DNA of 64,000 bases, from the NCBI RefSeq assembly GCF_017876755.1, contig NZ_JAGIOO010000001.1:6247786-6311785 (forward strand). Reading direction: 5' to 3'. Shown here piece by piece: positions 31,965-34,248 of the stretch. Under the pieces are notes generated by a model. The model saw only the letters and a program-made list of their open reading frames with translations, made no database searches and was not told the origin of the DNA. Every line of letters begins with the position of its first letter. Position 1 is the stretch's first letter. The DNA comes from Crossiella equi (GTDB lineage Bacteria > Actinomycetota > Actinomycetes > Mycobacteriales > Pseudonocardiaceae). The position numbers and the translations under genes are program-made.

Positions 31965-31994
31965 CCTACCGGTCAGTAACTCCAGGTACGAGGG

Positions 31995-33041
31995 TCAGTC
32001 CGTTTTCCGCTCCGGCGCGATCTGTGCCAGGCGGCCAACCAGGGCGTTAGCGAGGTGCTGGAAGTCCTGGTAGCACTTCTGTACGTAGGTCTGAGTGCTC
32101 CCGATCGCGCCGTCGGCCGTGCGCAGGTCGAACATGGGCTTGCGTGCGTCATGGGCCAGCGGCATCAGGCTGCGATAGTTCTTCAGTGTGGCCAGCTCGT
32201 ATTCGTCATGGGTTTCGGCGCTGTCGAGCACGGCGGCTGCGAACACTTCGGGAATGCGGTCCAACCAGCGTTGATATGCCTGAACCGGCCTGTCCAGACG
32301 CATACTGGGCTGCATGATCACATACCCCAACGGGAGCATGCTTCCGGAGGGGGCCTCGATGTCTGCTGGCATCTCCGGCAGCACCTGCCTTTGCCAGACC
32401 CTTCGCCAATCGCGCAGCGTCGGGCCCAGGTTGCGCAGGCCGCGGAGTGAGAACAGATCGGCGGCCAGCGGCATGAGTACCGTGTCGGCGGACAGCAATG
32501 CCGCGCGGTTGATGGCCCCCAGGTTGGGTCCGACGTCGATGAGAACGAGATCGGCCTCCACGGAACGACGGATTTGTTCGATGACGCGGTAGAAGGCGGT
32601 GGTGATGCGCAGTGCCGCGTCATCACCCACGACCCCTCTGGGCCATGCGTCGGAGAGGCGGGCCTCGAATGAACTCAGCTTCAGGTCCCCTGCCAGCAGC
32701 CACAGGCCGTAAGTGATTTCTACCGGTGCGGGTACTCGAATGTCGCCCAGTCCCTTGAGGATCGGTTCAACCGCATCCACGATAGTTCCCGCGTTGGCGG
32801 GAATCACCGTCTCCCGGGGACCCCGTCTCGGTGAGGCATCTGGCGGCAACGCACCATCTGGCTCCCGCCAGATGGATTCCAGCTCCTCGTCGTCGAGAAA
32901 GACCGAGGTCAAGTTGGACTGGGGATCCAGGTCCACGGCGAGCACTCGGTGTCCCTGCCGGTTCAGCATGTGTGCCAGGTGGTAGGTCAGCGTTGTCTTG
33001 CCAACGCCTCCCTTGTTGTTGAACAACGCGATCGAGGTCAT
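31995..33041 (-). CDS. ParA-like deviant-Walker ATPase, partner in a two-gene module
   Basis: A 348-residue ParA/MinD-family ATPase. The deviant Walker A NNKGGVGKTTL is at 8-18, with signature Lys10 and catalytic Lys15; the switch region LAVDLDPQSNL and Walker B DLVLIDVGPN are present. It is longer than chromosomal ParA, with an extra C-terminal helical part (PMFDLRTADGAIGSTQ). There is no ParB gene and no parS-like site. The start overlaps the upstream AlbA_2/GHKL gene stop by 4 bp (ATGA) and AGGAAGG precedes it. Codons use more A/T at third positions than the neighbours, suggesting horizontal transfer. Probably an effector or sensor ATPase in a defence-like module (inference). Confidence 0.85.
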   Translation of the reverse strand: MTSIALFNNKGGVGKTTLTYHLAHMLNRQGHRVLAVDLDPQSNLTSVFLDDEELESIWREPDGALPPDASPRRGPRETVIPANAGTIVDAVEPILKGLGDIRVPAPVEITYGLWLLAGDLKLSSFEARLSDAWPRGVVGDDAALRITTAFYRVIEQIRRSVEADLVLIDVGPNLGAINRAALLSADTVLMPLAADLFSLRGLRNLGPTLRDWRRVWQRQVLPEMPADIEAPSGSMLPLGYVIMQPSMRLDRPVQAYQRWLDRIPEVFAAAVLDSAETHDEYELATLKNYRSLMPLAHDARKPMFDLRTADGAIGSTQTYVQKCYQDFQHLANALVGRLAQIAPERKTD

Positions 33042-34219
33042 GGTGCCTTCCTGAGCACGACGGTCCACGACGAATCGTCCACGGTGAACTCTGCTGGTGG
33101 GTTGCCGTTCCGTTCCAGTGCTGTCTGGATTCGACCAATGCCTCGGCCAAACCGGTTGACATAGCCGAGCGCCTTCATCGCCGCGGCCAGGGACGGGTTC
33201 CGGTAGTCGTTCACCCGCGCGTAGTTGTCTCGGTTCACCTGGCCGTACGGGCCGCCTGGGTTCGTCACCTCGATCCGGTCGTCAAACCACACCACCCGGA
33301 CAGGCGCGTACGAGGACTCGTAGTTGCGGTGCATCACCGCGTTCATGCACACCTCGCGCAGGGCCTCGAACGGGTAGTCCGGGCGGCTGTGTTCGCGGAA
33401 GTCGTCCTCTTCGGTCAGCCGGGTGTGCAGGTGTCCTCTCAGTACAGCGGCCAGCCTGGTCGCGCTGCCAACGACATTCGACCGTAGTTCCTGCTCGTCG
33501 GACACGGCGGCGTCCAGGTCGGTGCCCTGGTAGCGGACGAACTGCAGGTAGGCACCCGGGATGTGTGCACCGGGATCCACGCCGACGACCAGCAGACCGA
33601 GCACGGTCGGCACCTGGTCCGAAGTAGCCATACGCAAGGAGGCCAGCTGCGCTTCGATGGGGCGGTGGTTCTCCGCGATGATCTCCGGAGCGACCATGGA
33701 CGGGAGGTAGTCGCTCCGGAACAGAGACAGGTCAAGGTCGTCTGTGGTCGCGGTGTGGACCGGCCTGGTGTCATATGGGCCGTCCAAGGCTCGACGCCGC
33801 TCGCTCAGAACGCGTTCGTCTTCCCGCCCGGCTGCCCGGGTGGTCGGGCCGGGTCGCACCCAGGCGACGCCCTTGAACCGAACTGGCGGTGTGGAGGACG
33901 GCTCAACTCGGACTTGGACAATCGGGCTGCCTTTGAAGCTCGCCACCTCCACGATCACGGAGGGACGGTCCAGGATCAGGCCGCTGTCGCGAAAGAGGTC
34001 GGTCAGCGCCCGCAACGCCTGGTCGCTGGTGTCCACCCCGGGGACCGGGTCACCCTTGTCGTCGACCCCGATCAGCAGGCTGCCGCCGCCAGTGCCGGCG
34101 AGGTCATTGGCGAAGGCGCACACAGCCTTGGCGAGCTTGTCGCGGTCCTTGCTCGACTCCTTGAACTCCAGGCTGGTGGTCTCCTTGGTGCCAAGGAGCT
34201 CGGCAAGGTCCTCGCTCAT
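33038..34219 (-). CDS. AlbA_2 (Schlafen-like) domain protein with C-terminal GHKL-type ATPase
   Basis: A 393-residue protein. The N-terminal AlbA_2/divergent AAA_4 domain (about 1-130) has TSLEFKESS, FANDLAGTGGGSLLIGVDDKG and VEPSSTPPVRFKGVAWVRPG. The C-terminal third resembles the HATPase_c_4 domain: EVCMNAVMHRNYESS, VVWFDDRIEVTNPGGPYGQV and RFGRGIGRI. Such proteins are putative transcriptional regulators, helicase-like or immunity proteins and recur in prokaryotic defence islands; eukaryotic Schlafens have related N-terminal folds. It is the first gene of the ParA-like module, starts 44 bp after the degV stop and sits next to a 21-bp palindrome. Lower GC than its neighbours. Confidence 0.85.
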   Translation of the reverse strand: MSEDLAELLGTKETTSLEFKESSKDRDKLAKAVCAFANDLAGTGGGSLLIGVDDKGDPVPGVDTSDQALRALTDLFRDSGLILDRPSVIVEVASFKGSPIVQVRVEPSSTPPVRFKGVAWVRPGPTTRAAGREDERVLSERRRALDGPYDTRPVHTATTDDLDLSLFRSDYLPSMVAPEIIAENHRPIEAQLASLRMATSDQVPTVLGLLVVGVDPGAHIPGAYLQFVRYQGTDLDAAVSDEQELRSNVVGSATRLAAVLRGHLHTRLTEEDDFREHSRPDYPFEALREVCMNAVMHRNYESSYAPVRVVWFDDRIEVTNPGGPYGQVNRDNYARVNDYRNPSLAAAMKALGYVNRFGRGIGRIQTALERNGNPPAEFTVDDSSWTVVLRKAP

Positions 34220-34227
34220 GCGGTCAT

Positions 34228-34248
34228 AGTGTCACGCCCGGTGACACT
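34228..34248. promoter_or_regulatory. 21-bp palindrome at the promoter of the AlbA_2/ParA module
   Basis: Perfect 8-bp arms agtgtcac and gtgacact flank gcccg. It is 8 bp upstream of the AlbA_2-gene ATG at 34219, where the -10 region would be, so a bound regulator would block transcription. It may instead terminate degV, which ends 16 bp upstream. Confidence 0.5.

Follow-up and report, generated by a model that had tools for sequence, protein, structure and literature searches.

The stretch of DNA analysed here, called the window, comprises 64,000 nucleotides of the Crossiella equi genome (contig NZ_JAGIOO010000001.1, positions 6,247,786 to 6,311,785). It contains a two-gene module in which a gene for an extended ParA/Soj-like ATPase (gene 2) adjoins, on the same strand, a putative effector gene (gene 1) coding for an AlbA_2 (Schlafen-type) domain fused to a GHKL-type ATPase domain. 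The pairing of an AlbA_2-HATPase protein with ParA is a real unit that recurs across bacterial phyla. On balance, it is favoured here as a guard/effector module whose ParA would hold a Schlafen-type nuclease in check. The features of the pair are:

33038..34219, minus strand: gene 1, AlbA_2 (Schlafen-type) and HATPase_c_4 protein of 393 amino acids (aa); proposed nuclease effector/toxin
33833..34183, minus strand: AlbA_2 (Schlafen) domain of gene 1, residues 13-129 (PF04326, E 2.8e-17)
33053..33304, minus strand: HATPase_c_4 domain of gene 1, residues 306-389 (PF13749, E 7.2e-18)
31995..33041, minus strand: gene 2, extended ParA/Soj-like ATPase of 348 aa (AAA_31, E 1.1e-28); proposed guard/antitoxin and sensor
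33038..33041, minus strand: ATGA, overlap of the gene 1 stop codon and the gene 2 start codon

The Pfam assignments agree with the initial annotation, which had described AlbA_2 and GHKL-type domains in one product and a ParA-like ATPase in the other; its claims of an ATGA overlap, of low GC with more A/T-ending codons and of a missing parB also hold. The overlap suggests translational coupling of the two genes. GC content is 0.658 in gene 1 and 0.629 in gene 2, and that of third codon positions (GC3) is 0.827 and 0.771; the means of 40 other script-called genes of the window are 0.738 (standard deviation 0.027) and 0.930 (standard deviation 0.053), respectively. GC3 as low as that of gene 2 is also found in two other genes of the window. 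A ParB_N profile search placed the nearest match above the cut-off about 0.83 Mb away, with no parB adjacent to the pair. In NCBIfam, gene 1 is without any match, and none of the best 25 of 29 matches of gene 2 is above the cut-off. A search of PADLOC, a defence database of the kind recommended in the initial annotation, gave partial matches and no model specific for the pair. Residues 16-388 of gene 1 align with the N-terminal portion of a prokaryotic Argonaute (pAgo) model (E 6.9e-15), and the protein also hits two pAgo-type models linked to SIR2; for gene 2, the hits are confined to the ATPase motif of PDC-M28B (E 8.8e-10, 40 residues) and to AbiO at E 0.059. In PHROGs, gene 1 is assigned to a family named DNA helicase and gene 2 to a ParA-like family.

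ParA relatives at E 1e-15 or better are present in 39 of 390 genomes of the window's taxonomic family. In the 18 genomes where the best long alignment reaches 45% identity or more, ParA is directly preceded by gene 1 or what is left of it; at 37% identity or less this is never so, bar a short fused scrap of the two genes in genome G005. The same pairing rule holds in order-wide and phylum-wide samples, where 16 of 397 and 5 of 396 genomes, respectively, have matches at 1e-22. Named genomes were searched with a ParA profile built from 17 of 19 intact sequences; a scan of genome contigs with a single protein recovered no relative, and the alignment query recovered them. The set of named genomes consists of the best 80 of at least 566 ParA relatives, and gene 1, intact or in a few cases broken, lies directly upstream of ParA in 69 of these 80 loci. 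According to the record titles, the hosts belong to Actinomycetota, Pseudomonadota, Planctomycetota, Cyanobacteriota, Acidobacteria, Chloroflexota, Bacteroidota, Fusobacteriota, Nitrospirae, Latescibacteria, Verrucomicrobia and others, more than 10 phyla in all. Among 106 ParA-relative loci tested, the flanking genes of the window recur in L075 (G002, of the window's genus), L062 (G159) and L065 (G102) and partly in L070; L231 has distant Etf homologues and most loci have none. The pair thus recurs in unrelated contexts, as the initial annotation had proposed to check; it is not a fixture of this locus in all relatives with normal GC, and its two genes co-occur elsewhere.

The 11 exceptions among the 80 loci are nine Frankia/Pseudofrankia contigs, one of which (L164) has no room upstream of ParA, and two loci outside the window's family, in Nocardiopsis (L167) and Symploca (L201), where ParA is kept and only a C-terminal stub of gene 1 is left. 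The solo ParA proteins of Frankia/Pseudofrankia (L160-L165, L168, L170, L191), with no AlbA_2 gene beside them, are about 60% identical. An overlap of exactly 4 nt is found in 59 of 66 intact pairs (64 named loci and two viral contigs) and in 17 of 18 pairs of a second set of intact relatives, the start codons in these counts having been chosen by script. Pairwise distances of gene 1 and ParA correlate over 65 pairs, the window's included (r 0.767; the largest of 2000 permutations gave 0.185).

Residue conservation was counted over 65 aligned gene-1 proteins and 65 ParA proteins. In gene 1, E13, E18 and N38 are invariant (65/65); D54, present in the window's protein, is an aspartate in 56. The active site of rat SLFN13, as described in the part of PMC5862951 consulted, comprises E205, E210 and D248, with E205A and E210A fully inactive; judging from the sequence, E13, E18 and D54 of gene 1 likely correspond to these positions. 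A comparison of the gene-1 profile with the SLFN11 chain 7fex aligned E13, E18 and the GVDD stretch, below significance (E 0.34). In the ATPase part, N293 and H297 (both just before HATPase_c_4), E317 and G322 are invariant in all 65 proteins. The deviant Walker A motif of ParA is intact: K10, G11, G14, K15 and T16 are invariant, together with D37, D39 and D169 (65/65), and G12 and V13 each vary in one sequence. Conserved residues are also found well beyond the ParA core, and the gene 2 profile aligns with the solved structure 3pg5 over positions 1-322 of 330 (E 3.6e-47). Both genes are under purifying selection (omega between the window's genome, G000, and G002 is 0.15 for gene 1 and 0.30 for gene 2). 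The ParA of G002 (L075:7425-8420) is 52% identical to that of the window and its AlbA_2 partner 82%; the ParA sequences diverge from about residue 60 on, as if the body of the protein had been swapped or were fast-evolving.

The window's family was searched for broken copies from both the ParA side (390 genomes) and the gene-1 side (386 genomes). In four genomes (G102, G013, G195 and G047) gene 1 is broken or N-terminally shortened beside an intact ParA, and all 12 intact close gene-1 orthologues of the family (12/12) are accompanied by an intact ParA. In genus g12, a match without the AlbA_2 domain occurs in 17 genomes, and the fetched relic regions have no ParA match. Frameshifts in L190 and L199 (metagenome bins, where they may be sequencing errors) and a break in L153, a locus with 716 N, are not counted here. 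The pattern of loss suggests a toxin and its restraint, of which it would be expected.

More distant ParA relatives have other partners, a HEPN (PF18735), SIR2 (PF13289) or PIN (PF16289) gene directly downstream (14, 21 and 4 rows, respectively). SIR2 genes accompany ParA relatives on Vibrio ponticus, Spirosoma and Salmonella plasmids; HEPN genes do so on a Burkholderia glumae plasmid and in filamentous Pseudomonas phages. In phage Pf1, Orf317 (annotated as a Soj-like regulatory protein; L108:2567-3520) is followed by an unannotated frame of HEPN type by profile, as in phage WX-TY. ParA relatives thus occur on plasmids and in phages, and one lies near a type I restriction–modification system; the immunity region of phage ST160 has a solo ParA two genes after the repressor. 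Among 35 viral-contig loci, SIR2 lies near ParA in 18, the AlbA_2 gene in two and HEPN in one; 13 have none of the four partners and one is without a usable ParA frame. Four loci (L080, L081, L083, L149) have a low-GC PIN_12 gene directly downstream of the ParA relative, and in L150 the ParA relative lies directly downstream of a 1067-codon frame with the look, by eye, of a PLD/helicase restriction-type protein, rather than next to a small effector gene.

A quick, midpoint-rooted tree of 96 ParA sequences, in which the 32 AlbA2-linked ones are the window's and 31 hand-picked of 95 and the remainder are all other rows of sufficient length, forms separate groups by partner, with supports of 100 (AlbA2), 97 (HEPN), 100 (SIR2) and 99 (PIN). 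The partner label changes nine times on this tree, against a shuffled mean of 52.8. The 25 rows for which no partner was recognised fall in several parts of the tree, with 11 in the AlbA2 group. The deep order of the tree is unsafe because of the long branches L094, L237, L102 and L150. The window's ParA is homologous to the HEPN-linked ParAs over most of its length, yet falls into a separate group. The extended ParA family appears to serve several different killing enzymes, and since HEPN, SIR2 and PIN partners occupy separate groups of that family, gene 1 may be placed in the same toxin slot, as an effector.

We infer a nuclease activity, its inhibition by ParA, a trigger and a role in phage defence, as follows. 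Gene 1 would encode the dangerous component, the Schlafen-type (AlbA_2) nuclease fused to the GHKL-type ATPase domain. The ParA of gene 2, translated from the same message, would bind the gene 1 product and, while in one nucleotide state, keep the nuclease in check. The DNA-binding/ATPase cycle of ParA might sense a trigger, in the simplest case phage DNA or some change brought about by the phage; the nuclease, once released, would cut RNA (tRNA, by analogy with Schlafens) and cause growth arrest or cell death. The GHKL part could act as a second ATP-dependent switch or as a dimerisation device. The role of such a module is probably abortive infection. A wider proposal, possible and put forward tentatively, is a modular immune family in which a single extended ParA-like ATPase is the shared leash and sensor of phage, each branch being matched to its own killing enzyme (Schlafen/AlbA_2-GHKL, HEPN, PIN or SIR2), with the window's version a ParA-gated Schlafen that kills infected cells. 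If this is true, ParA-type ATPases, known as DNA-segregation motors, also regulate cell-killing enzymes, and bacterial Schlafens are placed in a defined, widespread two-gene system; the prediction is that 'orphan' ParA genes without parB on chromosomes, plasmids and phages merit inspection of the adjoining gene.

The initial annotation regarded the pair as a candidate undescribed defence system. The HEPN, SIR2 and PIN partners, and the occurrence of the family in phages, predicted viral contigs and plasmids, favour the defence part of that claim; the module is not wholly new in kind, because a dyad of ParA/Soj and HEPN built on the same principle had already been predicted in 2013 (PMC3710099, in the portion available). 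A count of defence islands with PADLOC at 1e-15 gave hits of 146 of 214 near neighbours to 171 families, and of 146 of 152 genes more than 4.5 kb away to 61; it is only suggestive, because families rather than proteins were counted, some genes belong to both sets and those far away share their contigs with the near ones. Those listed include BrxL, BrxD, AbiLi, AriA, mad3 and the type I specificity subunit among the near families, and AriA, BrxHI/BrxHII, DrmD and HEC-01A among the far ones.

Several observations weigh against a restrained nuclease as the explanation. D54 is replaced in nine of the 65 gene-1 proteins. The asymmetry of loss is 4:0 in a small sample (one-sided binomial about 0.06); in G076, where gene 1 is wrecked, ParA also is without residues 252-305, and both genes are broken in G194, G084 and the second G319 copy. 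Eight Frankia/Pseudofrankia contigs with room upstream keep a conserved ParA with no gene 1, so ParA can have a use of its own. Distant full-length AlbA_2-HATPase proteins exist without ParA (G195:C181, G043), as do two AlbA_2-HATPase paralogues in the window's genome that lie far from any ParA match; such proteins are therefore not generally in need of ParA. The AlbA_2 pair is also effector-first, the reverse of the gene order in the HEPN, SIR2 and PIN dyads.

Among other explanations, the one that survives best is a pure toxin–antitoxin addiction cassette, in which ParA is the antitoxin, the Schlafen protein is the toxin and persistence is due to post-segregational killing, with no defence role. 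It is the function proposed for ParA/Soj-HEPN dyads in the section of PMC3710099 that deals with them, and a compact two-gene unit with a 4-nt overlap, ParA relatives on many plasmids and a broken toxin beside an intact antitoxin would all fit it. Within the window's genus, however, the pair sits at a chromosomal site, where it is either present or traceless. The same ParA family also pairs with SIR2, a domain typical of abortive infection, and an addiction cassette is considered unlikely here.

Less probable still is a transcription-control pair, in which the AlbA_2-HATPase protein would bind DNA and regulate transcription through a palindrome and other targets, with ParA as its modulator. 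AlbA_2-HATPase proteins are often called DNA-binding regulators, and the palindrome in question, which the initial annotation had placed over the promoter, is present:

34228..34248, no strand: inverted repeat of 21 bp (8-bp arms, 5-bp spacer), 8 nt upstream of gene 1

Arms of such quality arise in about one of 60 shuffles of the 60-nt region upstream of gene 1, and the palindrome is a possible operator. Only five of 84 relatives have a palindrome that scores at least as high, with differing sequences, so that of the window is not a conserved part of the module and is given no weight as a sign of function. The treatment of AlbA_2 as DNA-binding in the passage of PMC6299218 on pAgo operons agrees with a regulator; the invariant Schlafen glutamates and the other partners of the same ParA family (HEPN, PIN or SIR2) argue against one.

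Rather improbable, too, is a DNA-targeting defence, in which AlbA_2 acts on or binds invading DNA, not RNA, and ParA, a type of protein that binds DNA non-specifically, loads AlbA_2 or moves it along DNA. The catalytic glutamates of gene 1 match those of an RNase (SLFN13), and the sister dyads carry HEPN and PIN domains, which are usually RNases; on the other side stand the match of gene 1 to the pAgo model and the listing of AlbA_2 proteins in pAgo operons as DNA-binding (in the same passage of PMC6299218). A remnant of plasmid or chromosome partition (the ParA of ParABS) is scarcely credible and was rejected, and with it the earlier label 'partition-like': the ParA/Soj core keeps its Walker A motif, but no ParB_N match above the cut-off lies within about 0.8 Mb, the standing partner is an AlbA_2-HATPase protein and conservation extends well past that core.

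On either side of the pair, the blocks methyltransferase (MTase)/GH57/glycosyltransferase and DegV/EtfB/EtfA show conserved synteny throughout the five genomes of the window's genus (5/5). The pair is present in G000 and G002 and has no match at the site in G001, G003 and G004, so that a comparison with sister genomes, as advised earlier, finds three of the five without it. The junctions in the window are:

31988..31998, no strand: left junction, where homology to the empty sites of G001, G003 and G004 ends; holds the ParA stop codon
34264..34299, no strand: right junction, where homology to the sister genomes resumes at the DegV stop; two genes of the other four genomes are missing

The three genomes without the pair have two other genes at the site, one of 102 aa (no Pfam match) and one for a 560-aa WXG100-like/alpha-beta hydrolase protein; G002 has both the pair and these genes, and G000 has the pair with both of them missing. 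Compared with G001, G002 carries a clean insertion of some 2.2 kb whose two ends share a 13-bp repeat. Direct repeats of at least 13 bp flank five of 82 cassettes, with about 0.1 expected from shuffles; since their length varies from 13 to 27 bp, no single mobile-element mechanism is indicated. Repeats of 13-27 bp flank the cassette in L211, L232, L146 and L063.

In the wider family, the MTase-DegV interval was followed in 71 regions, 69 of them chosen from among the 151 genomes (out of 200) that have the MTase, together with those of G159 and G102; no flanking gene was recognised in eight of the 71. The interval is almost empty, at 43-119 bp, in G044, G045, G047, G087, G152 and G343 and is longer in many genomes. 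It holds the pair in G159 and G102, where gene 1 of the latter is frameshifted, and in G005 a scrap in which both genes are fused; in genus g12, six of eight fetched genomes have at the site a remnant of gene 1 that lacks the AlbA_2 domain, with no ParA. These g12 loci (L330, L331, L333, L335, L374, L375) have an open frame of the gene 1 middle and ATPase part beside the same MTase, a frame that is possibly domesticated. The same intergenic site has the pair or its relics in four genera, which makes it an old site, repeatedly emptied or refilled.

In the gene-1 tree, same-site copies of three genera cluster with a single outsider locus (G157) nested among them, which requires two changes; a strict same-site clade has a p value of 0.019 in the approximately unbiased (AU) test. 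That the same-site copies cluster with one outsider only is the reason for preferring an old site that has repeatedly lost and regained the pair, and for rejecting a fresh insertion as the whole story. Recent exchange also occurs, given that synonymous divergence between G000 and G002 is 0.84 and 1.24 for the pair against 0.38 and 0.44 for the flanking DegV and MTase genes, and that a 234-bp stretch of the DegV 3' end stands on both sides of the G159 pair, its two copies 99.1% identical (L372:8483-11228). This duplication suggests a recent gain or tandem-type recombination. The earlier description of the pair as inserted in a conserved block is therefore only partly right: it stands for the conserved flanks and the presence/absence pattern, but the site is old and holds the pair or its relics in four genera.

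Of the systems known from the literature, the closest are the ParA/Soj-HEPN (MAE_18760) dyads, which Anantharaman et al. (2013), in the text of PMC3710099 available, predict to be toxin–antitoxin pairs with ParA as the antitoxin; Schlafen domains fused to that HEPN family are noted there as well. In open-licence literature, preprints being outside the scope, nothing was recognised on ParA paired with AlbA_2, SIR2 or PIN, and the term ParA was not found in PMC9503650; the HEPN version is thus already predicted, and the Schlafen, SIR2 and PIN versions were not found there. As in the HEPN dyad, a ParA/Soj-like gene of the window adjoins the gene of a predicted RNase, and HEPN partners occur in the same ParA family. 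In contrast to that dyad, the partner is an AlbA_2-HATPase protein without a HEPN domain by Pfam, lies upstream rather than downstream and goes with a ParA of a separate group; the HEPN partners found here are matches to PF18735 (RiboL-PSP).

Proteins that combine a Schlafen RNase, a minimal histidine-kinase ATPase and a winged helix–turn–helix (wHTH) domain are described as accessory BREX-linked effectors in the relevant part of PMC12839542, which also points to a 2025 preprint about bacterial Schlafens and defence against phage. They share with gene 1 the fusion of a Schlafen (AlbA_2) domain to a HATPase-type domain and are linked to defence; their wHTH domain is C-terminal, whereas gene 1 has none by Pfam and has a standing ParA gene instead. 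Eukaryotic SLFN11 and SLFN13 have the likely catalytic E, E and D positions in common with gene 1, which differs from them in having one AlbA_2 domain and a bacterial GHKL-type ATPase part. ParABS systems share the ParA ATPase motifs with gene 2 and possess ParB; gene 2 has no ParB near, a different standing partner and an extended C-terminal part. For the 'uncharacterized protein' of structure 3pg5, an extended ParA, the likeness to gene 2 goes further, as its C-terminal region can be aligned too.

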